Assembly (NCBI GenBank): GCA_023150835.1
Contig: JAKLKB010000035.1
Span: 1 to 64,000, forward strand
DNA: 64,000 nt
Direction: 5' to 3'
Source: Myxococcota bacterium
Lineage (GTDB): Bacteria; Myxococcota_C; UBA6777
Shown here: one piece after another, positions 132-40,950 of the stretch
How the letters are laid out: each line of letters begins with the position of its first letter
How positions within the stretch are numbered: the first letter of the stretch is position 1
Made by a program: the position numbers and the translations under genes
Notes under the pieces: generated by a model
The model's input: only the letters and a program-made list of their open reading frames with translations
The model's database searches: none
Told to the model about the DNA's origin: nothing

Positions 132-821
132 TTAGGGTTTTGGGATGGAGCGGGTGAGAAGTCGTTTGGTCTCGCGGAGGGCGTTGTGGGTGCGTTGGGT
201 GAAGGTGTCGATGGGGAGGGGTTTGTTGTGGCGCTTGGCTTGTGTGACGAGGCCAAGGATCTGGTGGGCGTGGAGGGGGGCGTCGAGATCGGGGCGATTG
301 TCGCCACGTGTCCAGCAACGCCAGAGGTGCGGGTCGTCAGGCGCGGGGCAAGAGGGAAGGTGGAAGACACCGCTCCATGCGTTGGCGGCTCTATGGAGCA
401 TGGAGGGAGGCTGGGGGGACAGGCTGGTGACGCGATGGATGATCCAGCGGTGTTCGAGGGCAAAGACGATGATCTGGCCGATGCGGATATCGGGCCATCG
501 GAGGGGGACGAGGGCGACTTGATCGCCAGTTTGGAGGAAGGGGCGCATGGAGAGGCCTGTGGTGGAAAGCCAAAGCAGATCGAGACGGAGATCACCCCAA
601 CGAGAGCGCCAAAGTTCGGAGGCGTCGCAAGCGATGACGCTTTGTGAGAGGGAGAGGATGCGGGTTTCGTTGGTTGCGAGGGAGCGCACCAACAGGCCGG
701 AGGGAAGGCGGGTGTGAGCGCAAAAGAGTTCCCATCGGTGTGTGAGGGAAGGGAGGAAGAGGAGGCTATGCGGGGGGAGGTGAAGGGCGAGGGTGGGGAA
801 GAGGCGGGGAGGGGATGTCAT
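132..821 (-). CDS. S24/S26 (signal peptidase I-like) serine peptidase
   Basis: A 229-residue protein whose middle matches the signal peptidase fold. It has LSMRP with the likely nucleophile Ser91, a GQIIVF strand at 115-120, IHRV with His129, and GDN at 173-175 followed by a conserved Asp. A His rather than Lys after the Ser box is the pattern of ER/SipW-type signal peptidases, which use a Ser-His pair. About 85 residues of unknown type precede the domain, and no transmembrane anchor is obvious, so it may be cytoplasmic or loosely attached. The ATG lies 5 nt after the stop of the 60-residue gene at 827-1009. It has no purine-rich ribosome site of its own, so translation is probably coupled. 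Inference: maturation peptidase of the RiPP-like cassette. A housekeeping signal peptidase is less likely given the absent membrane segments. Confidence 0.75.
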   Translation of the reverse strand: MTSPPRLFPTLALHLPPHSLLFLPSLTHRWELFCAHTRLPSGLLVRSLATNETRILSLSQSVIACDASELWRSRWGDLRLDLLWLSTTGLSMRPFLQTGDQVALVPLRWPDIRIGQIIVFALEHRWIIHRVTSLSPQPPSMLHRAANAWSGVFHLPSCPAPDDPHLWRCWTRGDNRPDLDAPLHAHQILGLVTQAKRHNKPLPIDTFTQRTHNALRETKRLLTRSIPKP

Positions 822-826
822 GGGGG

Positions 827-1009
827 TTAGGAGGGTTGAGGGAGGCAGTCCTCGTTGCAGGGATCGTTAAACTCAAAACATCGATCACCGCTTTTTCCCG
901 CGCTTTCGAGGGCGTTATTTTCGAACAATGGCTCGGTTTGGATGGTGGGGGGGTGGTAGGGGCGTTTTGGTGTTGGTTGCGAATGATTTTCTGCGGAAGG
1001 TTCGAACAT
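827..1009 (-). CDS. Small Cys-rich protein, candidate RiPP precursor peptide
   Basis: A 60-residue ORF starting at an ATG preceded by AAGGAG nine bases upstream, a strong ribosome site. The first two thirds are Pro/Glu/Asn-rich without a signal peptide. The last 17 residues hold three cysteines (Cys44, Cys51, Cys55) in CFEFNDPCNEDC, and the chain ends LPQPS with a C-terminal Ser. Its stop is 5 nt from the S26-type peptidase start, and 77 nt separate it from the upstream lipoprotein gene. The same strand further upstream encodes a radical SAM/SPASM enzyme, a PqqD-like chaperone and an HprK-like kinase. Leader-core layout plus this context suggest a modified-peptide precursor. The family is not recognised. 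It could instead be an ordinary small protein. The C-terminal Ser is noted because HprK-like kinases of lasso clusters phosphorylate such a residue. Confidence 0.6.
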   Translation of the reverse strand: MFEPSAENHSQPTPKRPYHPPTIQTEPLFENNALESAGKSGDRCFEFNDPCNEDCLPQPS

Positions 1010-1086
1010 CTTGGAAGTCTCCTTGTTTTTGGGGGACGGTAGATGGGATGCGAAGAAGTGCTGCGTTGGAGAAGGGCACGAGACAG

Positions 1087-4000
1087 TTAATAAACAACGT
1101 AGAGGTTGCCTTTGGCAGAGGTGCCCGTTTCAACGAGGACGAGATCAGGGAAGCCATCACCGTTGAGATCGAGGCCACCGAGCAGGCTATTGTAGCCCAA
1201 GCCAACGTTCGCAGCACTTCCAAACCAATGGATATCGGCTTTGGCGTTGAGATCGCCGCCGGTTAGGTTGTTGAAAGAGTTACCAAAAAAGAAATGGGCG
1301 GAGCCGGCGTTGCTTTGGGGGTTATCAGAAAGCCCGTTGCCGATCATGAAGTCGGCGTAGCCATCGTTGTCGACGTCGCCTGCAGCGCTTGCGGTGGAGA
1401 TTTGAGAGCCGGAGGGGCCGTAATAAATCAATTCGGCGTCGCTTTCGAGGAGATCTTTGCGTTGGTTGAGTTTTTGGCCGGAGAAAAGGAAAGCAGCGCC
1501 ACCCGTGTGGCCTTGGGGGGCGACGCGGGTGGTGTCGATGATCACGAGTTCAGGGGAACCATCTTTGTTCACGTCGCCCACAACGGAGACGAAGTTTCCG
1601 AATCGGGAGCCGGAGGTGCCTTGGATGGTGAGGGTGGCTTGGCTGCTTTTGATTTCCTTGGTGGTGGGTGTGGCAAGGAGGGGTCCATAAAAGATCATAA
1701 CGCGAGAGCTTGCGAAAGAAGGCACGATGAGATCAGCGTGGCTGTCGCCGTTGAGATCCGCCAAACGCGGGACGGTGGCGAAGGAGGTCGCGGTGGGGAG
1801 CGAATCGTTGTAGATGCGGATATCTTCGAATGTTGCGTCGCCTTTGTTTAAGACGAGTTTGTTGGGTGCTGCGGGGTAGGTAGAGCGACCAAAAAAGATA
1901 TAGATTTGGCCTTTTGCGGTGGTGTTTGGGATAGGTTCGGTGGGAGCGGATACGACAAGATCGGCGCGTGTATCGGAGTTGAGATCGGGGATTCCTCGGC
2001 GGCCTGCGGCTGCGAGTCCAAATCCAAAAAGTCCGTCGCCGTTGAGGACGACTCGCGAGGGTGTGGCGATGCTGCCGGTGGTGATGCTGTTTCGTGGGCC
2101 GCCGAAGACGATATAGACGCGGCCTTTGCTGCTGTTGGTGTAGGGGGCACCGACGGCAAAGTCATCGAAGCCATCGTTGTTGAGGTCGCCCATTCCGACA
2201 AGGCTTTGGCCGATGCGCTGGCTGCTGTCTTCGCCGTAGAGGGTGACGTCGGGGGCTGAGGGGAAAAGAGAGCCAGAGGAGGCAGGGCGGCCATAGTAGA
2301 TGTAGACCGCACCTGTACGTGTTTTGTTGGGTTCGGTGTCTGAAGGGTTAGAGACGACGAGATCGAGGAGACCATCTTTGTCGATGTCACCGACGATGGC
2401 GGTGGCGGCTCCGTAAAGGCCCGCGTCAGGCCCAATCGCGGCGAGGGTTTGTTGTTTGAATTGGGCCGTTACGGAGACGTTGTTGGAGATAGCCGAGAGA
2501 TTTCCAGCGCGGTCGATGGCACGGAGGGCGAGGGTGTATTTTTGTCCGATGCGGAATTGATCGATGACGAGAGTTGCGGTTTGTCCGGGTGTTCCGACGA
2601 TGTTACTTTGTTGGACGTTTGTTATGCCGGCCCAATTGGCATCGTTGATAGGGCCATCGCCTTTGAGCCAGCGGGCTTCGTAACGAAGCAGGCCGGAGGG
2701 GCTAGGACCCGTATCTTGGGAGTGTGCCCATGTAAGTTTGAAAGAGGCTTTGCGGTGATCGACGACTTCGACTTTGAGGTCGTTGATGGCGTTAGGAGCG
2801 GTGGTATCGATGATGACGGTGTACTGAAGGGTTGTCGATTTCTGGTTTTTTTTGGTCACTTTGACGCTGATTTTGTTTTCACCTTCTTGGAAGGTGATTC
2901 CTTGGAAATCGACGTTGCGGAGTCCAGCGGCAGCATCGACGAGGGTTTTGGTTTGAGATTGTCCGTTGATGGTGAAGTCGGCAGGTTGTCCGACTTCGGC
3001 GTCGCTGGTGCAGGACAGGCCATTTTGGACGCCTTGGGCTTGCGGATCTGTGTCGTCTGCGCTGGAAAGGTTTGCGGAATTGTTGGTGTCGAAAGCAGGG
3101 CCTTTGATGAGCTTGCAAGAAAGGGCGGGAGCGCCTTGTTCTTCGACGGTCACTTTGACGGCGGGGGAGTTGGTTTTGAGATTGCAGGTGGGTTCGAAGG
3201 CGTTGAGTTGGAAGGTGTTGTCTTGATTTTCGACGAGGGTAACGAGGAAGGTGACGACGCTGTTGTTGGCTTTTTGGATGAGTTCTTTTCCGTTGAAGAG
3301 CAGTTTGATATCCGTCCCGTTGGGGGCGCTGGTTGTGGCGCGAACGGTGTACTGAACGCCGGTGGTTTGGGGATCTTCGTCGCGACTGGCGGGGATTTTT
3401 TGTCCTTCAAGGATGTTTGCAAACGAGATGTCGTGGCCGCGAGTGCGGATCTGGACTTTGGATTCGGCGCTTTCACCGAAATTTTGGAGTGGATCTTTGA
3501 CGGTGGTTTTGAGCGTGTGTTGAAGCAGGGCGTTGATGGAAGTGAGTGTGACGCGGAAAGAGACTTTGCCGCTGTTGACTTTGTTGGGTCCAGCGAAGGG
3601 AAGGCCGTCAAGGAGGAGGTTGGCATCACTACCATCGCGAGCGTTGGTGGAGACATCGACTTGGAGTTGAAAGCCATCGGTTTGGGGGTCGAGGTCGTCG
3701 GGTGGGCAGAGGAGCTTGTTGTGGGTGGGGGAGTCGATCACGACGGTCGGTGCGGTGTTGAGGATTTGGAATTTGATTTGATTTTGGCAGCGATTTCCGG
3801 CTTTGTCGGTGATTTTGGCGGTGAGGGTGACGTCTCCGTCGGGGAGGGTGGTTTTGGTAAAGATGGCTTTTCCTGCAAGGACGGGAGCCGAAAGGGTTTG
3901 AGGGCTACCTTTGCCGTTGTCGAGGGTGATTTCAACGTCTTCGCCGGGTGCGGGGGGGGGTTCGACAAGGACTTCGATGGTTTTTTGGAGGCCGGGGGTT

Positions 4001-4491
4001 TCGGTATTTTCGTCATCTTTGGGGCCAAACACATCGCCGGCGATGGGTTTATTGATTTTGATTTGGAAGCATTGAGAGTCGACGGTGACGTTGAGAGCGT
4101 CGGAAAGGTAAGTTTGACCGTTGGCGGCGGTGAGCTTGAGTTGGAGGATGTTGGCCCCTTCGGCGAGAGTATAGCGCTGGAAGGTGAATTCGGTTGTGGT
4201 GAGGTTGATTTCTGCGGGGTTTCCGCCGTTGGTGGTGAGAGTGACTTTGCTGTTTTCGGGGGCGTTTTCGGTTTTTCCTCGGAGGGTGAGTTGAAATCCG
4301 GGGGTTTGTGGATCTTCGTCTTGTTGGGCATTAAAGTTTTTTTGAGAGATGCCGACGAATTGGATGGTTGTGGGGCCGGGCGGAGGGCCGCCACCACAGT
4401 TGCAGGCAGTGGTCGAACCTGTGAGCAGGGCCAAGCACAACCATCCCAACAGGGCGAGGCGTTGGGGTATTTTTTTGCGAGGGATAGACAT
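1087..4491 (-). CDS. FG-GAP repeat lipoprotein with Ig-like and fibronectin III-like modules
   Basis: An 1134-residue surface lipoprotein. The signal peptide ends in a lipobox TGSTTAC with the acylated residue Cys30. Five successive Ig-like modules follow, each opening with a recurring motif of the type DxDPQTxGxQ (for example DEDPQTPGFQ, DDLDPQTDGFQ, DEDPQTTGVQ). A fibronectin III-like segment (around residues 580-700) comes next. The last 450 residues are about seven FG-GAP repeats with calcium-loop patterns such as DIDKDGLLD, DLNNDGFDD and DVNKDGSPE, forming an integrin-alpha-like propeller. Role: probably adhesion or surface binding; no ligand can be named. The start ATG has GGAG eight bases upstream. 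A TATAGT hexamer with a poor -35 lies about 140 nt upstream. It sits inside the minus-strand cassette between the radical SAM gene and the small Cys-rich gene, which may be coincidence or may make it a carrier or substrate. Confidence 0.88.
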   Translation of the reverse strand: MSIPRKKIPQRLALLGWLCLALLTGSTTACNCGGGPPPGPTTIQFVGISQKNFNAQQDEDPQTPGFQLTLRGKTENAPENSKVTLTTNGGNPAEINLTTTEFTFQRYTLAEGANILQLKLTAANGQTYLSDALNVTVDSQCFQIKINKPIAGDVFGPKDDENTETPGLQKTIEVLVEPPPAPGEDVEITLDNGKGSPQTLSAPVLAGKAIFTKTTLPDGDVTLTAKITDKAGNRCQNQIKFQILNTAPTVVIDSPTHNKLLCPPDDLDPQTDGFQLQVDVSTNARDGSDANLLLDGLPFAGPNKVNSGKVSFRVTLTSINALLQHTLKTTVKDPLQNFGESAESKVQIRTRGHDISFANILEGQKIPASRDEDPQTTGVQYTVRATTSAPNGTDIKLLFNGKELIQKANNSVVTFLVTLVENQDNTFQLNAFEPTCNLKTNSPAVKVTVEEQGAPALSCKLIKGPAFDTNNSANLSSADDTDPQAQGVQNGLSCTSDAEVGQPADFTINGQSQTKTLVDAAAGLRNVDFQGITFQEGENKISVKVTKKNQKSTTLQYTVIIDTTAPNAINDLKVEVVDHRKASFKLTWAHSQDTGPSPSGLLRYEARWLKGDGPINDANWAGITNVQQSNIVGTPGQTATLVIDQFRIGQKYTLALRAIDRAGNLSAISNNVSVTAQFKQQTLAAIGPDAGLYGAATAIVGDIDKDGLLDLVVSNPSDTEPNKTRTGAVYIYYGRPASSGSLFPSAPDVTLYGEDSSQRIGQSLVGMGDLNNDGFDDFAVGAPYTNSSKGRVYIVFGGPRNSITTGSIATPSRVVLNGDGLFGFGLAAAGRRGIPDLNSDTRADLVVSAPTEPIPNTTAKGQIYIFFGRSTYPAAPNKLVLNKGDATFEDIRIYNDSLPTATSFATVPRLADLNGDSHADLIVPSFASSRVMIFYGPLLATPTTKEIKSSQATLTIQGTSGSRFGNFVSVVGDVNKDGSPELVIIDTTRVAPQGHTGGAAFLFSGQKLNQRKDLLESDAELIYYGPSGSQISTASAAGDVDNDGYADFMIGNGLSDNPQSNAGSAHFFFGNSFNNLTGGDLNAKADIHWFGSAANVGLGYNSLLGGLDLNGDGFPDLVLVETGTSAKGNLYVVY

Positions 4492-4722
4492 TGATTTTTC
4501 TCCATTAAAGCAAAAACAACCACCAAGGCGACCAAGGTAAGGGTTGCGTCAAACGGCGGGCGCTAGGTGTTTTGGGTTACGCAGGCTTCTTGGAAAGAAG
4601 ACAAGGGTCACATCAAACGGACTATAAAGACTTTTGTTGGTGAAAGAAAGTCTCTTACTCGTAATTTTCTTGTGGAGAAGGCACGATCTTATCCACCTGT
4701 CGGGTGGTTTGGGCAGGTTGGC

Positions 4723-5979
4723 TCACTGGTGCCGTTGTTGGGTGTAGTGGTTTTGTGGGGGAAGGGTTGCGATGTGTTGCAAGAGGTTTTGGAGTCCTTG
4801 GGGGAGCGAGCCACAAGAGGAGCCGCAAGAGGTTTTCTTTGGGGTTGAATGGGTGGTTGAGCCGAGAGGAGGGGTGTGTTGGGCAAGTTGTTGAAGGGCG
4901 GAATGGAGGTGGTCTTTGGAGAACGAGGGAGGGCGTAGACCGTTGCGTTCTTCCCAGACTTGTCGGCGGACACGAGCGAGTGTGCAGAGAGCGGTGCTGG
5001 GCTTGGTAGGGTCGCCTGTATCGAGCAGAGCCGAACTGGGGCAGTAACTACAGTGAGATTGATCGGGGCAGACTTGGCAGATGGGGTCTTGAAAGCGTTG
5101 GAGGCTGCGGATGGATTGGATTTCTTGTCCTTGCCAGATCTCTAGCAGGCTTTGGTTGCGGAGGTTTCCGAGAGAAGGGATCAAATCCATGCAAGAGTAG
5201 ACTTGGCCGTCGCATCCGATGACGACGCGAGTACGTCCGGCGCCGCAGATCGGGCTGTTGGGGATGGCGGGTCGTGGTTCGAGTTGTTTGGCGAAAGAAG
5301 GATCGCGTTCTGCCATGAGATGGTAGAGGTAGGCGAGTTCGTCGGCTTGGACTTGCATGGAGAGAGGGTGGCGTTTGCGGTCGTGGGTAGCGCTGACTTT
5401 GAAGTCGATGACAAAGCGAGCGTCGAGTTGTGCGGCAAGTGTGCGCGTGGGGATGATTTGGCCGAGGTTTTCTTGCATTTGAAGGTATTTGATCTCGGTT
5501 TGTATGCCGACACTTCGGAGGTTTTGGAGTCCTTCGACGGTTTTTTGCCAAGAGCCCGAGATTTGGGTGATGGCGTCGTGGGGCGCGGGTTCAGCGGCAT
5601 AGAGTGTGACGGAGGCGGCGTGAACTCCGGCCTGTTTGAGTTTTTGGGAGCGTTCGAGATTGCAGGGGGTTCCTGAGGTAAAGAGGGTGATGACAAAGCC
5701 GTGTTGGCTGGCGTGGTGGATAATTTCGTAGATATCGGGGCGTAGGAGGGGTTCGCCGCCAGTGAAGGTGATGCTGGTGGAACCAAGGGCTGCAAGTTGA
5801 TCGAGAGCGTCTTTGACTTCGGGGAGTGTGAGCTCTTGGCGAGGGTTTTCAACGAGATAACATTGTTGGCAGTGGAGGTGGCATCGTTCTGTGAGGGTAA
5901 AGAAGACGCTTGCGGGGATATTGTTTCGCAAGATGCGTTCTTTGAGTTTTTGGCTAATGGAAGTGGTGGGGTGGGACAT
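4723..5979 (-). CDS. Radical SAM/SPASM peptide-modifying enzyme with Cys-Gly tail
   Basis: A 418-residue enzyme with the radical SAM cluster motif CHLHCQQC (Cys33, Cys37, Cys40), GGEP at 74-77, and a SPASM-type C-terminal domain with Cys245, 256, 263, 301, 304, 310, 313 and 332, enough for auxiliary iron-sulfur clusters. Such proteins modify ribosomal peptides, often with a PqqD-type leader-binding partner, and a PqqD-like gene ends 129 nt upstream. Odd feature: residues 350-418 form a low-complexity tail containing TSCGSSCGS (Cys385, Cys389), which is not part of the SPASM domain. Translation start: ATG with AAGGAG eight bases upstream. Related family types include PqqE, AlbA-like and GeoRSP-like maturases; the exact reaction cannot be assigned. 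A heme d1/AhbD-like enzyme is the main alternative. Confidence 0.85.
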   Translation of the reverse strand: MSHPTTSISQKLKERILRNNIPASVFFTLTERCHLHCQQCYLVENPRQELTLPEVKDALDQLAALGSTSITFTGGEPLLRPDIYEIIHHASQHGFVITLFTSGTPCNLERSQKLKQAGVHAASVTLYAAEPAPHDAITQISGSWQKTVEGLQNLRSVGIQTEIKYLQMQENLGQIIPTRTLAAQLDARFVIDFKVSATHDRKRHPLSMQVQADELAYLYHLMAERDPSFAKQLEPRPAIPNSPICGAGRTRVVIGCDGQVYSCMDLIPSLGNLRNQSLLEIWQGQEIQSIRSLQRFQDPICQVCPDQSHCSYCPSSALLDTGDPTKPSTALCTLARVRRQVWEERNGLRPPSFSKDHLHSALQQLAQHTPPLGSTTHSTPKKTSCGSSCGSLPQGLQNLLQHIATLPPQNHYTQQRHQ

Positions 5980-6108
5980 TGTGGGCTCCTTGCGAAGCGT
6001 GGGGTGTTGGGCTGAAAAAGCTGCGCGTGGAGAGTGTGAAGGGGAGAAGAGAGCGTTAGATGCGCAGCAAGAAGTGTTGGATGCGGTGTTTTGGCTTTGT
6101 ACGCGGGG

Positions 6109-6390
6109 CTATTTCTCCTCAAAGGAAAGGAGTTCTTTGGATTGGAGGATGGCGACAAAGCGTTGAAGATCAGCCAGAGCATATTCTGGGGAGACATCGA
6201 ACAGGGCGGAGACTTGGTTTGCGATGGTTTGGAGATCGTGTTGTCCGTCGCACAAAGACCAGATGAGAGCGCCTGTGGCGTTGAGTTCGTGGAGCTTGGC
6301 GTGGGATGCGTCAAGCAAAAAGGTGGCGTCGTCAAAGTTGCGGGTGCCGACGGTGGGGTTTCGTTTGGGTCGTATGTGGCGGGCGATCAT
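6109..6390 (-). CDS. PqqD-like peptide chaperone
   Basis: A 93-residue protein typical in length for stand-alone PqqD/RiPP recognition elements. The pattern ATFLLDASHAKLHELNATGA-LIWSLCDG-TIANQV-LFDV matches the PqqD fold: two beta strands, the conserved LN-x-TGA-x-IW helix start, then a winged-helix-like domain. Family role: binds the leader of a precursor peptide and presents it to a radical SAM enzyme. The start chosen is the ATG at 6390, because AAGGAAG lies just upstream and because upstream in-frame sequence is the shadow of the kinase gene. It begins 25 nt after the HprK-like gene stops and is followed by the radical SAM gene, so all three probably form one transcript. Confidence 0.85.
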   Translation of the reverse strand: MIARHIRPKRNPTVGTRNFDDATFLLDASHAKLHELNATGALIWSLCDGQHDLQTIANQVSALFDVSPEYALADLQRFVAILQSKELLSFEEK

Positions 6391-6415
6391 ACAAGATGCT
6401 TCCTTGTGTTGTGTT

Positions 6416-7447
6416 TCAAGCCGACATGGCGGCATTTGAGAGAGTTGGGTGCGGAGTGGTTGGATGAGCGAGAAGTTCCCAATAGGCGTTTGTGGGGGGA
6501 GTTTCGAGCAGGTCGCAAAAAGGGAGCCATTGATCGAGGAGCTCCATGAGTAGTAGTTGTTCGCGTTGGTTGGGGAAACTAAAGCAAATAACGCGAGCGA
6601 GGCGTTGGAAGGATTCGCGGGGAGAGAGGGGGTGTTTGGCGGGAGAGGTGGCGCGTTTGAGAAAGTGGATGCCTGCGAGGGGGGCGGCGATCTCTTCGCC
6701 GGGAGCGCCCCAATCGCCATAGAAGGGAGTGCCATAGGCGTACAAATTGCGGGGATTTTGTGGGTTGGGTCGAAGGGCCACGATCTCGTCGCTGAGGATC
6801 TGTGTGTTGGGAGGGGCGTTGCGGGTGGCGGTGGTTTTGCCGGACCCAGAGGTCCCAGCGAAGAGGTGGGCTTGCCCATCGCGAACGAGGCCCGAAGCAT
6901 GGAGCAAGGCACCGCCAGAAGCGAGGAGTTGGCGGTGGAGTAAGAATTTCCAGAAGGTTTGCACGACAGCACGAGCGGACTTGGGTAAAGGAGAGATCAA
7001 GCGCGCAGGGCCGAATTGTGGGACAAGAGCGGCAAAGCGGGTGTGCAAGACCCACAAGCCATCGGAGGATTCTTCGACGTGAAGCATGAGGGAGTGTTGG
7101 GCGCTGGGCTGGGGGGCGAGTTGTTTTTGTTCGGCGGCTTTTTCGTAGAGAGGTGTCAATTGCTCGAAAAGGGCGAGGATAGAGTGTTCGTATTTTTCTG
7201 TAAGTCCGGCACTACCGATGAAGTGGATGGCCATGTCTGCGGGTTGCGGTTGGGGAGGGGAGAGGAATTTGTGTTGGAAGATATCGTCGAAATGGGCGTA
7301 GATGGTGTCGGCGAGTTCTTGGGCATGGAGGGAACAAGAGGTTCCAGCGACCTGTAGGCGCAAAAACTCGGGGGGGCAAGGGGGAGGTTGGAGCAAGATG
7401 CGTTTGGCATCTTCGATAAAGGGTTGGCAGAGGAAGGTGGTGGGCAT
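6416..7447 (-). CDS. HprK-like P-loop kinase/ATPase
   Basis: A 343-residue protein whose C-terminal half resembles the HPr kinase fold: SGGALLHASGLV strand, Walker A GTSGSGKTT at 198-206, LSDE at 219-222, and a GTPFYGD loop around 239-245. The N-terminal 170 residues are unlike true HprK and unknown. HprK-related proteins lacking the HPr target recur beside PqqD, nucleotidyltransferase-fold and RiPP genes. In lasso peptide clusters one phosphorylates the precursor. Here it opens a run with PqqD and a radical SAM gene. The ribosome site is weak (GAGAACCTC before the ATG). Substrate unknown; the 60-residue small protein is the obvious candidate in the window. Confidence 0.8.
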   Translation of the reverse strand: MPTTFLCQPFIEDAKRILLQPPPCPPEFLRLQVAGTSCSLHAQELADTIYAHFDDIFQHKFLSPPQPQPADMAIHFIGSAGLTEKYEHSILALFEQLTPLYEKAAEQKQLAPQPSAQHSLMLHVEESSDGLWVLHTRFAALVPQFGPARLISPLPKSARAVVQTFWKFLLHRQLLASGGALLHASGLVRDGQAHLFAGTSGSGKTTATRNAPPNTQILSDEIVALRPNPQNPRNLYAYGTPFYGDWGAPGEEIAAPLAGIHFLKRATSPAKHPLSPRESFQRLARVICFSFPNQREQLLLMELLDQWLPFCDLLETPPTNAYWELLAHPTTPHPTLSNAAMSA

Positions 7448-7629
7448 GAGGTTCTCGTTGTGTGGGGTTATAAGGAGCAGTCCACGGAAAGCACGGAAAA
7501 GTGAAAGAGGTCAAAGGCCATCAGAGAGCGAAAACAAGTCGCACCTTGGGAAGGGCTTGCGCAAGCGCTATACCGCGCCACGCGAGAAATCGTACAGGAA
7601 AGAGAGATGAGGGGGGGGCTGTTGTGTCG

Positions 7630-8571
7630 TCAAGAGGCGGTCGTTTGGGAGAGGATCGCTTGGAGTGGGTTGGCGACATACGGTTGAGAGCAAAAGGAGA
7701 GTCCACATTTGGCGAAGTGGTGGGCGTTTTCGGGTTCTTTGCGTCCGAGGCAAGCGCGGGCGAGGGAGAGGTAAAGTTCGGCGAAAAAGGGGTATTGGTG
7801 TTCGTCTTGTTGGCTGTAGGTGAGGGCGGCAAAGAAGGCGCTGGCTTTTCGGGAGATGCGGCGGTGGAGGGGGAGGTCTTTGCGGCCAGCTTCGGAGATA
7901 CGGGCGCTTTCGATGAGCGCATCGAGATTTTCTTGGAGGAGAGTGCTGGCGCGTCGGTATTCGTTGCGAGCGAGGGCGATCTCGCCACGTATGGCGTCGA
8001 GGATGTAGCGGTGGGGGGGGCCGCTGGTGATCTCTTCGGCTTCGCTGAGGGCGAGGTCGGCTTGACGTAGGGCGTCTTGGTTGGAGAAGCAAAGGGCGAA
8101 CAGGCGGGCTTTTTGAGCGAGAAGCCCAGCACGAAGTAGCGAGGGTGGGACGTGTTCGAGGGCTTCATCGAGGATCTCACGGGCGCGTTGGGGATAGCCG
8201 AGGCGGCGTTCGAGATCGGCTTCCATACCCCAAACAAAAGCGGCTTCCATGCCGGTATCACGGGATTTTTGGAGCAGGCTTCGTGCAAGGGTTTCATCGG
8301 CTTCTTCGATGGCGAGTTCGGTTTGCATTCGCAGATACGCTTCATAAGGAAGCAACAGCCGCCAAAACAGCAGGTGTCTTCGAGCGGATCGAAAACGGCC
8401 TTGGCTGCGCAGTTTTCCGATATGCCGATAATGCGCAAACACGGCCATGACCATCGGGAAAAGCAGCAAGATCCCGAGCAAAAGGCCATCAATCGGCAGC
8501 CGCAGACCATAAGAGAGAAAGACGATCCCCAAAAAAGGGAACAAGATAAACAAGAGTACACGAAAGAACAT
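7630..8571 (-). CDS. Membrane protein with TPR-like helical repeats
   Basis: A 313-residue protein. The start is set at the ATG at 8571 because AAGGAAGA precedes it and the N-terminus then opens with two hydrophobic segments (residues about 2-20 and 24-45). After the membrane hairpin the chain is all-helical with paired helices rich in A, L and E, the look of tetratricopeptide repeats, for example ARSLLQKSRDTGMEAAFVWG and AREILDEALEHVPPSLLRAG. No catalytic motif is visible. It lies 182 nt upstream of the HprK-like gene on the same strand and could be a scaffold for that cassette, or an unrelated upstream neighbour. The gap holds two copies of the 9-bp CACGGAAA-type unit that is amplified at 10.5 kb. 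Confidence 0.7.
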   Translation of the reverse strand: MFFRVLLFILFPFLGIVFLSYGLRLPIDGLLLGILLLFPMVMAVFAHYRHIGKLRSQGRFRSARRHLLFWRLLLPYEAYLRMQTELAIEEADETLARSLLQKSRDTGMEAAFVWGMEADLERRLGYPQRAREILDEALEHVPPSLLRAGLLAQKARLFALCFSNQDALRQADLALSEAEEITSGPPHRYILDAIRGEIALARNEYRRASTLLQENLDALIESARISEAGRKDLPLHRRISRKASAFFAALTYSQQDEHQYPFFAELYLSLARACLGRKEPENAHHFAKCGLSFCSQPYVANPLQAILSQTTAS

Positions 8572-8607
8572 GCGATCTTCCTTGTGTGGGGTTTGATGGC
8601 AAGCGGT

Positions 8608-8800
8608 CCCGTTGTTGGGCCACAGGGGGCTTCGGACGACGAAAACGAGAAAGATGCGACTGTAAAATGGCAAGCGGTCCTGTTGTTGGGCAGCCACAGG
8701 GGGCTGCCCCTACATCGGTCGCTCACACAACGACGTTGTTTTTGTGAGTGGGATGGTTGCGGGGCTGTCCCTACGTAGGTCGCTCGCACGATGGGCGGAT
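8608..8800. repeat. Dispersed repeat family A, three partial copies
   Basis: Three degenerate copies of the family A element lie upstream of the TPR-like gene. The best (about 8671-8732) reads, on the minus strand, GTTGTGTGAGCG then GTAGGGGCAGCC-CCCTGT-GGCTGCCC and ACAGGA. A second (about 8757-8800) retains ATCCGCCC and a damaged centre, and a third near 8608-8632 keeps only the central half. The central palindrome GGGCAGCC/GGCTGCCC (8688-8708) could form a hairpin in RNA. Other copies are at 26250, 55257 and 58191. Confidence 0.8.
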
Positions 8801-8806
8801 GTTGTC

Positions 8807-10249
8807 TTATTCTTTTAACAGGCCGATGCGGTCGGCCAGATCGTTGGTGAGGATGCCCGCTGGATCGAGTTGGCTTTTGAGAGAGCGCAACTGTCGTAGG
8901 CGATCCGCAGGAAAAGAGCGTTTGAATTGGTTTTCTGTCAAGAGGCCGTCTTTGGCGAAATAAAATCGCCCGCCGTGTTGGAGGACGACTTCGGTCATCT
9001 CGTGGGCGAGTCGATGGAGTCGGCGTTGGTTGCGTTCGCGGACGGGGTAGTCGAGCGCAAAGCTGTATCCGTCCACGTTGTAGGACATCAAGAAAGGATC
9101 GGGGAGGTGTTTTTTGAGGACGGCCAAAAAAGGCGGGATTCCCGCTTTTTGTGACAAAAGGATCTGTTGCTCGAAGACTTGTCGTGCGGCAGCTTTGGGG
9201 ACAAAGGTTTGGTATTGGATCAGGCCGCCCGGTTGGTAACTTTTTTGCCATCCCGGGACGTAATCCAGCAAGAAGTTGAATCCAGCGTGGCTTTGTCGGT
9301 ACGGTGGGCGCGAGGCTTCGCGGCGGTCTGCGTAAAACTTGGCGGTGTTGACCAACCGCATCCCGGGCCGATGCAAGAACATCCACAGCCCCATCCACAG
9401 CATCGATTTGGGGACAACGCCGAGGAACACTTCGGGGAGTTCTTGGTAAGAGAGTTTGAGCGTGTGGTGAGGGCGCTTGTCTTCGCCTTCTTGGAGGTTG
9501 CGTGCGACGTGCAAGGTTCCTCGCCCCAACTGAAAGCCGGGCGCAAGCGCATCGACCCAGCCCACAAGGTAATCTTGATCGAGGTGTGCTTCCATCACGT
9601 CGATCATCTCTTGGATCGAGCGTGTCGAAAAGGTTTCGACCAAGACTTCGCCGCTGTAGACGCGCTTCATTTGCAATCGAATCCGCGTGATCACCCCCAA
9701 TACTCCGCCTGATCCGATCACTCCATAAAAGACCTCGCGGTGTTGACTCGGCGAACACGTCAACAAGCGCCCATCCCCCGTCAAGACATCGATCTCCAAA
9801 ACATGATCGCCGAGCGTCCCGTATTTGAAGCTGTTCTTTCCGTGTATATTGACGCCCAATCCCCCCCCAAGTGAGGTGCGCATCGTTCCGCTGACCACAG
9901 GCGGCCACCAACCATCTTCGAGCGTGTAGTGCCACAGATCCACAATGCGCACCCCCGGCTCAACATCGATCACTCCGTTGCTCGGATCCCACGCCAAGAC
10001 CCGTCGCATCCGCGTCAAATCCAACAACACACGATCTTGGCCGATACTGGCGTCTCCATAACTTTGTCCGCTTCCGCGCAACGTGATCTTGACCCCTTCT
10101 TCGTGGGCTCGCTCAAGGATCCTCTGCGCTTGCTCCACAGTCGTTGGGCGCGTCGCATACATATCCGCACCATGCGACATCCCCCATCCGCGCACCCGCT
10201 CCATCCGCGATGACAACACCAAACCACCGCTCAATAATGCTTGCTGCAT
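8807..10249 (-). CDS. DprE1-like FAD-linked oxidase
   Basis: A 480-residue flavoenzyme with a PCMH-type FAD domain: [11 protein letters not shown] near residues 58-68, a Gly-rich [14 protein letters not shown] stretch at 126-139, GGLIQYQ in the substrate domain, and a C-terminal [10 protein letters not shown] block. These, and the ending [17 protein letters not shown], closely follow mycobacterial decaprenylphosphoryl-ribose 2'-oxidase DprE1. The residue matching its drug-reactive Cys387 appears to be Ala. Expected reaction: oxidation of polyprenylphosphoryl-ribose at C2' to a keto intermediate. The next gene upstream encodes the matching DprE2-like reductase. The start given is the last of five in-frame ATGs preceded by GGAGGGGAG. 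The reading frame continues upstream through an acidic and ENT-repeat region that is out of frame with its natural start at 10821. Confidence 0.8.
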
Positions 10250-10357
10250 CTCCCCTCCTTCCTCTGGACTCTGCATCTCCCCTCCTTCCTCTGGACTCTG
10301 CATCTCCCCTCCTTCCTCTGAACTCTGCATCTCCCCTTCTTCCGCTGAACTCTGCAT
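10250..10357 (-). repeat. 27-nt coding repeats, each carrying a ribosome site and ATG
   Basis: Four 27-nt units encode MQSPEEGGE-type nonapeptides ahead of the flavoenzyme. On the minus strand every unit contains GGAGG or a close variant a few bases before an in-frame ATG (starts at 10357, 10330, 10303, 10276), and a fifth ATG at 10249 follows the last unit. The effect is a ladder of plausible translation starts in one frame. The first unit is the most diverged (SSAEEGE). Confidence 0.85.
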
Positions 10358-10495
10358 CTGCGCAATTTTCGTCTCTTCGTCTGGCTCGTTTGCCTCCGTA
10401 TGCTCGGAGTGTGTTGTGGGTTCTTTTGGGGCGGTGGGTTGCGAAACGGGAGATTCCTGCGGGTCGTCGTACGAAGTGTGAAACTCGCGCTGGTC

Positions 10496-10668
10496 GTTTT
10501 CCGTGTTTTCCGTGTTTTCCGTGTTTTCCGTGTTTTCCGTGTTTTCCGTGTTTTCCGTGTTTTCCGTGTTTTCCGTGTTTTCCGTGTTTTCCGTGTTTTC
10601 CGTGTTTTCCGTGTTTTCCGTGTTTTCCCCGTGTTTTCCGTGTTTTCCGTGTTTTCCGTGTTTTCCGT
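10496..10668. repeat. 9-bp tandem array (GTTTTCCGT) with one 11-bp unit
   Basis: Nineteen units: fourteen perfect 9-mers from 10496, one 11-mer at 10622-10632 with two extra C, then four perfect 9-mers. On the minus strand it encodes ENT repeats in frame with the flavoenzyme before the anomaly and ENT in frame with the upstream start after it. Gain or loss of a whole unit keeps frame; only an odd-length unit changes it. Two related units (CACGGAAAG, CACGGAAAA) also lie at about 7482-7500. Confidence 0.95.
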
Positions 10669-10866
10669 GGGCTCTTTTGAGGCGGGATGGATGGGGGCGG
10701 AGTGGTTGAGTTGGCGGAGTTGGGCGTCGACTTCTTCGACGGCGCGGGCGAGAAGTTCTTCTTGTGTTTTTTGGGATGGTGGGTTTTTGGGGGGTGATTT
10801 TTTCTTTCGAGAAGCAGCCATGAGGTGATCCTTTTGGGCGAGAGGCGAAGGTGTCGAGGGGGTGGG

Positions 10867-11637
10867 TTAGAAGGACATCTTGCGAAACAGGAAGCTGGGG
10901 ATTTGGCGGATGATCCACATGATCGGTCGCCAGATGCCGGGGACGTAGACGATGTTTCGGCGAGCGTGGATGGATTTGGCGATGCGCATGGCGGCTTGGT
11001 GAGGTTCGAGGATAAAGGGTTGGTTTTTGAGGTGAGCGGTCATGGGAGTACGGACGGGGCCGGGTTTAACGGTGAGGACGTGGACATCGTGAGGGGCGAG
11101 TCGATTGCGGAGGGATTCGAGGTAGGTGTCAAGAGCGGCCTTGGAAGCGGCGTATACGGTGTTTCCGCGTCGTCCACGATCACCTGCGACCGAGCCGATA
11201 CCGACGATGGTTCCGCGTTTGGTTTGGGAAAAGCGTTTGGCGGCTTCGTTGAGCCAAGCGATGGCTCCAAGGAGATTGATCTCGATGATCGATTGATCTT
11301 TGGTGAAGTCGAATTCATCGGGTGCGAGGGTGGGCATGATACCAGCGGCGTAGACGACGAGTTCAAGGCCGGGGGCTTGTTGGGAGATTTGTTGGAAGAG
11401 AGCGGGGATCTCGGCGTAGTGGGTGGTGTCGTGTGGGAAAGGAAAAGCGATGGGATCGGTGTGGCCTTGGTTGATCTCGGCAGCGAGTTTGCGCAACAGC
11501 TCGATGCGACGGGCGACGAGAGCGACGGCGTAGCCTTCTTTGGCGAGGTGACGGGCCAAGGCTTCTCCGATCCCTGAGGAAGCTCCGACAATCAACGCGA
11601 CGGGGCGAGCAGCGCGCAACAGTGTTCCACTTGTCAT
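10867..11637 (-). CDS. DprE2-like short-chain dehydrogenase/reductase
   Basis: A 256-residue SDR enzyme: the NAD(P) motif GASSGIG near residue 17, NAAG-equivalent VYAAG, catalytic Ser in GIGSVAG, and YAASK. The C-terminal end (PGIWRPIMWIIRQIPSFLFR) follows the ending of mycobacterial DprE2, as do the KPGPVRTPMTAHLK and neighbouring blocks. DprE2 reduces the keto product of DprE1 to polyprenylphosphoryl-arabinose, a donor for arabinose-containing envelope glycans. The flavoenzyme gene begins 45 nt downstream, so the two are very likely co-transcribed and act as one epimerase. Start: ATG at 11637 with GGAG upstream; an alternative in-frame ATG at 11691 would add 18 residues. Confidence 0.85.
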   Translation of the reverse strand: MTSGTLLRAARPVALIVGASSGIGEALARHLAKEGYAVALVARRIELLRKLAAEINQGHTDPIAFPFPHDTTHYAEIPALFQQISQQAPGLELVVYAAGIMPTLAPDEFDFTKDQSIIEINLLGAIAWLNEAAKRFSQTKRGTIVGIGSVAGDRGRRGNTVYAASKAALDTYLESLRNRLAPHDVHVLTVKPGPVRTPMTAHLKNQPFILEPHQAAMRIAKSIHARRNIVYVPGIWRPIMWIIRQIPSFLFRKMSF

Positions 11638-39717: not shown

Positions 39718-40950
39718 ATGCTTTTTATACGTGCGCTGAAACCTTGTCTATCGGAAAGATTGTTTTGCGCGATCAAACGAGGGAGCTTTTGCTTGGCGAC
39801 AGGTCTGTCTTCTTCTTTGTTTTTGGCGGACGAGATGTGGTTGATGGCGTTGTGCTTTCCTGTGCGGCCCGATGCGCCGTCACCCTTCGATCTCGAAGCG
39901 ATGGTCCGCCATCTGCCTTTGCCCGATCTTGCGCAGCTTTTTGAGCGTGCGCAACACGAACGCTTGTTGCCACTGTTGTCATGGAAGCTACAACATCCCG
40001 ATGGATGGCCTTTTTCGATCCGAACGCAGATACCACACCTCCCTGACGAGATCCGTCAACGCGCTCGCAGCGCCCTTCGCCAACAGCGAAAATCTGCGAT
40101 GCTCCGAGAGGCTCTGCTACAGGATGTGGCCCATCACCTTCAAGTACTCGATACCCACGCGATCCTCTACAAAGGCTCGGCGTACGAACGCTCGTTGTAC
40201 TCGGAACTTGGCCTGCGACCGATGGTTGATACCGATATCATCGTACCGTCCTCCGCTTACGAGTCGTTATGCCATCGCCTCGAACAACACGGATATCACA
40301 GGCTGATCAAGCATTCTCACGAACAAAGTTTTCACCACCCGCCCACGGCAACCCTTCTTGATGTTCATCGGGCGCTTTCGCCCGAACAAGAGGGGCTTTT
40401 TGATGTCTCGGCGCTTTTTCCTTTGGGGGTGCCGCTGGGGGCGGCCCCTGCTTATTTGGTATTGCCTCCCGCGATGTTGCTGTTGTTGCATCTGTTTCAT
40501 CTGCGCGGCAACGGTATGAATCCAATCGAGGCTCCGTTGTTGTCGGTTGTGGATCTGTTGTTGCTTGCCCAACGGGCGATAGAAGAACGCGAGAGATTGT
40601 GGGGGGATGCGCAGCGTTGGCGATGTGTGGGGCTGTTGCGTCTTGCCGATGCGTTGCTCCAAGGGCTTTTCTTGACGCCGCCGCTACCGCTTGCACCGAC
40701 GTCTCGGTCACCTTGGGAAGCCTTGCAACGTGTTGCCTTGCCCCGATTGTTGGCCTGTATCCGACAGGCCAAGCATCACGCTGAGGTGCCCCGCTCTAGT
40801 TTCCAAAGCCCGCAAGATCAAGCCTTACGGTCGTTGCTGCGTTTCTTTTGCTACGACACTCTTCCCGATCTGCTGCGCAGTCAAACCGCCAAGGCCATGC
40901 GGCTGCTCGCACGAACCCTCAAGGAGCGCGCAGCTCGTCGCGGTGGGTGA
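39718..40950 (+). CDS. Nucleotidyltransferase-fold protein (NTP_transf_5-like)
   Basis: About 410 residues. The core reads HAILYKGSAYERSLYSELGL then RPMVDTDIIVPSSAYE, matching the G[ST]...R...D-x-D pattern of the NTP_transf_5 family of uncharacterised nucleotidyltransferases. Members often occur with HprK-like kinases, PqqD proteins and RiPP or capsule genes. Such genes occur here too, but 31 kb away at 4.7-7.4 kb. The start is uncertain: ATG 39718 has no ribosome site and overlaps a TTGACA-18-TTTTAT promoter-like pair (39699-39728), so the ATG at 39835 is a real alternative (about 371 residues). Its 3' end overlaps the convergent Ppx/GppA gene by 32 nt. Confidence 0.78.
   Translation: MLFIRALKPCLSERLFCAIKRGSFCLATGLSSSLFLADEMWLMALCFPVRPDAPSPFDLEAMVRHLPLPDLAQLFERAQHERLLPLLSWKLQHPDGWPFSIRTQIPHLPDEIRQRARSALRQQRKSAMLREALLQDVAHHLQVLDTHAILYKGSAYERSLYSELGLRPMVDTDIIVPSSAYESLCHRLEQHGYHRLIKHSHEQSFHHPPTATLLDVHRALSPEQEGLFDVSALFPLGVPLGAAPAYLVLPPAMLLLLHLFHLRGNGMNPIEAPLLSVVDLLLLAQRAIEERERLWGDAQRWRCVGLLRLADALLQGLFLTPPLPLAPTSRSPWEALQRVALPRLLACIRQAKHHAEVPRSSFQSPQDQALRSLLRFFCYDTLPDLLRSQTAKAMRLLARTLKERAARRGG

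Follow-up and report, generated by a model that had tools for sequence, protein, structure and literature searches.

The minus-strand cassette and its conservation

The 64,000-nucleotide stretch of DNA analysed here (the window) is the start of contig C190 in a metagenome-type assembly (7.56 Mb, 239 contigs) of an uncultured Myxococcota bacterium. At its beginning lies a minus-strand cassette of six genes, which probably specifies a pathway for a ribosomally synthesized and post-translationally modified peptide (RiPP). An earlier note on this DNA had listed seven open reading frames (ORFs) on this strand as members of such a pathway, and all seven are present about where it placed them. In the order of transcription they are:

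7630–8571, minus strand: TPR-like membrane protein with an N-terminal membrane segment and a weak TPR match; a neighbour only, not a cassette member
6416–7447, minus strand: HprK-like kinase of the PEPCK/HprK type, 343 aa, with H183, the P-loop GTSGSGKT (K204) and LSDE (D220/E221)
6109–6390, minus strand: PqqD-type RiPP recognition element (RRE), 93 aa (PF05402, 57.6 bits against a cut-off of 23.4)
4723–5979, minus strand: radical SAM/SPASM enzyme, 418 aa (PF04055, 6e-20; PF13186, 2e-12), with CxxxCxxC at C33/C37/C40 and the SPASM cysteines present
1087–4491, minus strand: FG-GAP/Ig lipoprotein, 1134 aa (PF01839 in seven stretches; PF19077), with a lipobox Cys in its signal
827–1009, minus strand: candidate RiPP precursor, 60 aa, with the leader motif KRPYHPPTIQTEPLFENNAL and a C-terminal Ser; orthologues stand in the same place in genomes G002, G003 and G004
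132–821, minus strand: archaeal-type S26 (signal-peptidase-like) putative leader peptidase, 229 aa (TIGR02228, 2.5e-9, below the cut-off), with S91, H129 and D174

Gaps within the block run from 5 bp, between the 60-mer and the S26 peptidase, up to 231 bp, and a good ribosome-binding site (aaggag) stands ahead of the 60-mer. The PqqD gene is the sole PqqD match genome-wide, and an Rfam scan gave zero matches. The contig end coincides with window position 1, so that sequence beyond the S26 peptidase gene is missing in this assembly; a 41-bp tandem repeat at 1–107, the extreme contig end, is the probable cause of the break.

The host-phylum sample comprised five genomes, namely that of the window and G001 to G004, and the cassette is present, at least in part, in every one of them. 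All six genes recur in the same order in a sister genus, in G002 (SBHC01000010) and G003 (JALTMC010000671), while G004, from a third genus, has the same set without the radical SAM gene and leaves a gap of about 75 bp between the PqqD and lipoprotein genes. In G001, which belongs to the window's own genus, a short contig holds the TPR gene and breaks off 476 bp into the kinase gene. The kinase pieces of G001 and the window differ by dN 0.07 and dS 0.29, and the spacer upstream of the kinase gene is poorly conserved. Because this contig stops inside the kinase gene, the cassette probably starts in G001 and was lost to assembly, and its absence from that genome was rejected. In G002, G003 and G004 the block occupies one chromosomal slot, flanked by a leucine aminopeptidase gene on one side and MoxR/DUF58-type genes on the other (named from sequence). 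This shared location suggests that the block was inherited vertically, in contrast to a mobile antibiotic cluster.

These comparisons redraw the boundaries of the set. The proposal that seven genes act together is supported for six of them by conserved synteny, and the corresponding co-occurrence check finds those six families in the same order in G002 and G003. The TPR gene, present in 5/5 phylum genomes, is located apart from the cassette in G002, G003 and G004 and was rejected as a member. The lipoprotein gene, which the earlier note saw as splitting the set into two halves, belongs to the conserved block in all four cassettes. The same note had named loss or scattering of the 60-mer and the peptidase among relatives as telling against a RiPP pathway; relatives instead retain both beside PqqD and the kinase, and the RiPP proposal is supported.

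Precursor peptides and the distribution of the enzyme kit

In the four phylum orthologues of the 60-mer, K..Y..P.I..E.LFE..A is common to all, as are one Cys and the Ser at the C terminus, and the remaining core is variable; a fixed leader joined to a variable core has the look of RiPP precursors. The leader motif occurs in one ORF of the 64-kb window and once among 40 shuffled copies of it. Across three phyla, ten precursors (class A: the window peptide, L014, L015, L035, L072, L073, L074, L186, L187 and L188) align without gaps over the leader K[KR]xYxxPx[IFVM]xxEx[LVI]F[EQ]xx[AV][LIV], in which Y, P, E and F are invariant (10/10) and Glu follows F in 9/10. Judged by these sequence features, the 60-mer makes a convincing RiPP precursor. 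It had been called Cys-rich, a description that does not carry over to its relatives: the four phylum cores contain 3, 1, 1 and 2 cysteines with one column in common. Cys crosslinking as the defining chemistry was rejected since the cysteines are not conserved. A sactipeptide or ranthipeptide assignment was likewise rejected, as no maturase cut-off was reached and the one conserved Cys column is found too in G004, which is without the enzyme.

A kinase profile built from the four orthologues was searched against 395 Desulfobacterota and 294 Planctomycetota genomes, and matched in 48 and 29 of them, respectively. Kinase, PqqD, radical SAM and S26 proteins stand together at 24 of 40 Desulfobacterota loci and 9 of 20 Planctomycetota loci, which are minimum counts, several contigs being cut. 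At least three phyla share this enzyme kit. In an approximate, midpoint-rooted kinase tree, the host phylum groups with the class-A cassettes of Desulfobacterota. Nucleotidyltransferases of the PF14907 family, known from clusters for linear polyphosphorylated peptides (LPP) and paeninodins, are frequent near the kinase loci.

Besides class A, Desulfobacterota loci L076–L110 encode class-B precursors of the form YEKP...EEAVLxxCK...S, accompanied by kinase, PqqD, radical SAM and S26 genes. This is apparently an unnamed precursor family; none of the class-A and class-B precursors scanned scored above a cut-off in NCBIfam. A third class (L097, L099, L100, L103, L105, L107 and L108) is multi-Cys and Gly-rich, lacks both the FE motif and the C-terminal Ser, and occurs near the same kinase and PqqD types, where the kinase would need another target.

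The C-terminal Ser is present in 4/4 phylum precursors, in 6/7 of class A (9/10 with Planctomycetota added) and in 15/16 of class B, the remaining one ending in Thr. Among longer ORFs of the same loci, 35 of 512 (6.8%) end in Ser. Binomial p-values are 7e-7 for class A (6/7) and 5e-17 for class B (15/16), both optimistic because the sequences are related. The residue is retained across wide divergence in otherwise variable tails.

Predicted recognition, phosphorylation and cleavage

The kinases PadeK, ThcoK, SyanK and PsmK phosphorylate the C-terminal Ser of lasso precursors, and that Ser is described as extremely conserved wherever the kinase is present (PMC9266682). This precedent, together with the conservation described above, leads us to predict that Ser60 of the window peptide is phosphorylated by the HprK-like kinase. 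Orthologues of the latter occur in G002, G003 and G004. Its NCBIfam matches, ScmC (7e-6) and HprK_rel_A (0.0018), are weak and all below cut-off. AlphaFold models from three-row alignments were poor (pLDDT 47 for the kinase, and 56); the kinase model alone was searched, and its Foldseek matches to PEPCK and HprK lend weak support at this low confidence.

Leader removal can be approached through LppS, the archaeal-type signal peptidase of LPP systems, which cleaves their precursors behind FET in an RRE-assisted reaction in which F-3, E-2 and T-1 matter (PMC13381572). In the four S26 orthologues of the cassette, S91, H129 and D174 are invariant in the alignment, and their profile matches SEC11 at 3e-5; a clear transmembrane helix was not found in the protein sequence. 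Since the FE pair is also kept in the precursors, cleavage of the window peptide would be expected after FEN. The predicted core is then NALESAGKSGDRCFEFNDPCNEDCLPQPS, with 29 residues and an unmodified monoisotopic mass of 3142.31.

The radical SAM orthologues of G002 and G003 are 44–48% identical, and the motifs are intact in the window enzyme. A contig scan with the radical SAM alignment recovered the two sister-genus orthologues and otherwise distant radical SAM proteins only; against curated maturase models, the enzyme reached no cut-off. G004 does have a radical SAM gene, 30% identical, elsewhere in the genome and adjoining a transposon-type gene. By the evidence of the G004 locus, the dispensable component is the radical SAM enzyme and not the kinase.

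The lipoprotein consists of a lipobox signal, Ig-like modules, a fibronectin-like stretch and C-terminal, propeller-like FG-GAP repeats. Its orthologues are about 40% identical across three genera, and in each of the four cassettes the gene stands immediately ahead of the precursor gene. This constant place suggests a shared function, possibly binding of the product. No FG-GAP lipoprotein was seen among the Desulfobacterota and Planctomycetota loci read; this arrangement is lineage-specific and is the unusual part of the cassette. Elsewhere in class A, exported proteins are encoded beside the precursor at L072/L073 (secreted) and L186/L188 (small and membrane-anchored), and these four cases may be coincidence.

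Taken together, we consider it likely that the six genes form a RiPP pathway. PqqD would bind the leader of the 60-mer (K[KR]xYxxPx[IFVM]xxEx[LVI]FE) and hand the peptide on to the enzymes: the HprK-like kinase would phosphorylate the C-terminal Ser, the radical SAM/SPASM enzyme would further alter the core, and the archaeal-type S26 peptidase would cleave directly after the FEx triplet. The product and the co-encoded FG-GAP/Ig lipoprotein probably act together at the cell surface; the role of the lipoprotein is the weakest part of this proposal.

Relation to known systems and rival explanations

The closest published logic is that of LPP (lppAKBSDN), in which an RRE, the HprK-like kinase LppK and the archaeal-type signal peptidase LppS act without a radical SAM enzyme, and which has been described as confined to Bacillota (Popov et al., 2026; PMC13381572). 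The function of LPPs and paeninodins is given there as unknown. The cassette resembles LPP in its discrete PqqD-type RRE (PF05402, 57.6 bits), its HprK-like kinase (P-loop plus SDE, weak HprK/PEPCK matches), its archaeal-type signal peptidase with Ser, His and Asp as putative leader peptidase, and its short precursor, whose leader has YxxP and in which FE(T) precedes the predicted cleavage site. It differs in the leader, where the Y, P, F and E of YxxPxVLxHQxIxFETxxS are kept but HQ is absent and the Y-to-F distance is 11 instead of 13. The conserved C-terminal Ser replaces LPP's Ser at core position 3, and the phyla differ. A radical SAM enzyme and an FG-GAP lipoprotein, neither of them LPP features, are present, whereas LPP's PF14907 nucleotidyltransferase and MsbA-like transporter are both missing from the cassette as far as the window's contig reaches; the ORFs of the three complete loci (G002, G003, G004) include no transporter gene. 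The sole PF14907 nucleotidyltransferase of the genome (LppN/PadeN type) lies at 39928–40662 on the plus strand, some 32 kb away from the cassette. A second PqqD adjoins a PF14907 protein in G002, at a separate RiPP-like locus (G002:C19, L173, 7538–12583).

Paeninodin-type lasso clusters (PadeK, ThcoK, SyanK, PsmK) share the HprK-like kinase, the conserved C-terminal Ser of the precursor, and a [Y/W]xxP-type leader with an RRE, but the lasso cyclase and B2 cysteine peptidase are not among the cassette ORFs, a signal-peptidase-like protease and a radical SAM enzyme standing in their place. SynChlorMet (TIGR04248–TIGR04251) likewise combines a kinase-like protein, PqqD and radical SAM/SPASM enzymes and supplies the best NCBIfam matches for the kinase and PqqD. 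All scores fall far below cut-off, however (ScmC, ScmD, ScmE and ScmF: 25.5/125, 39.8/100, 56.4/400 and 84.8/400 bits); SynChlorMet has two radical SAM enzymes where the cassette has one, and the cassette precursors match no NCBIfam model. HPr-rel-A (TIGR04352/TIGR04353), which pairs an HprK-related kinase with a PqqD-like protein, is similarly remote (17.4 bits against a cut-off of 200, and 13.4 against 35).

We therefore read the cassette as a new form of phospho-RiPPs, an LPP-like kit with a radical SAM enzyme, a different leader spacing and a different phosphosite. A published description of the combination was not found in the open-access literature searched, subscription papers being outside its scope, nor was open-access literature on SynChlorMet or on signal peptidase, PqqD, kinase and radical SAM combinations. 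The word "undescribed" in the earlier note thus survives in part: the logic of RRE, kinase and archaeal-type signal peptidase appeared in print in 2026 (PMC13381572), while no published match to the radical SAM combination was found in that literature and LPP is described as Bacillota-only.

Several points weigh against this RiPP proposal. The kinase assignment relies on weak matches and on a model of low confidence (pLDDT 47), and Glu takes the place of the second catalytic Asp (SDE) in 4/4 orthologues. The radical SAM gene is missing from the G004 cassette, which keeps the rest, and the L074 precursor ends in Arg at a locus that also lacks radical SAM. The Ser phosphorylated in LPP at core position +3 is absent, L or V standing instead. 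No exporter or immunity gene was seen in the cassettes, and all host-phylum genomes used appear to be fragmented assemblies.

One rival is that the cassette matures the FG-GAP lipoprotein, the peptide being a small cofactor, ligand or covalent decoration and not a free natural product. The unvarying position of the lipoprotein gene in all four cassettes, the single chromosomal slot in G002, G003 and G004 with its suggestion of vertical inheritance, and the exported neighbours at L072/L073 and L186/L188 speak for it. Those neighbours are unrelated to the lipoprotein by the profile used, L074 and L187 have no obvious exported protein beside the precursor, and no crosslink or binding motif was recognised in the lipoprotein–peptide pair, so we regard this as rather unlikely. 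A second rival takes the peptide for a true LPP that carries its phosphate close to the beginning of the core, with the radical SAM gene as an unrelated neighbour. This would fit the RRE, kinase and archaeal-type signal peptidase common to both systems, the FE[TNSV] where cleavage is expected, and the missing radical SAM gene in G004. The leader spacing is two residues shorter, though, and HQ is not there; L or V, not Ser, stands at core position 3, and the radical SAM gene lies within the block in three genomes and most relatives. Membership was rejected on the leader and phosphosite tests, and this explanation seems highly improbable to us. A metagenome-type assembly and a window that begins at a contig end leave some room for ordinary neighbours without a common pathway and a 60-mer that is a chance ORF. 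This is contradicted by the conserved order, by a leader conserved in three phyla and expected far less than once per window, and by the ribosome-binding site, and its probability is close to negligible.

If the proposed RiPP pathway is correct, phosphate-carrying, signal-peptidase-processed RiPPs would no longer be confined to Bacillota but extend to at least three further phyla, and they would be coupled to radical SAM chemistry. A search rule for more follows (a class-A leader and a last residue Ser beside an HprK-like kinase), along with a clear biochemical prediction, and the fixed lipoprotein partnership offers a route into the function of these peptides. A bolder view, speculative and in our estimate distinctly unlikely, is that in these cross-phylum RiPPs one RRE serves both a radical SAM enzyme and a kinase that makes a C-terminal phosphoserine, and a signal-peptidase-type protease removes the leader. 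The product here would be a resident ligand or decoration of the propeller/Ig lipoprotein, a vertically inherited surface component and not a weapon.

Upstream of the TPR gene, a short 25-bp direct repeat (96% identical) occupies 8596–8620 and 8667–8691. Beyond it, a DprE1-like FAD oxidase ORF (8807–10918, minus strand) has a low-complexity N-terminal part in which a 9-bp unit is repeated 19 times (ENT repeats, 10496–10669) and which also holds a 27-bp repeat (10244–10359); in G001 the array region of this ORF is unaligned and seems largely missing.

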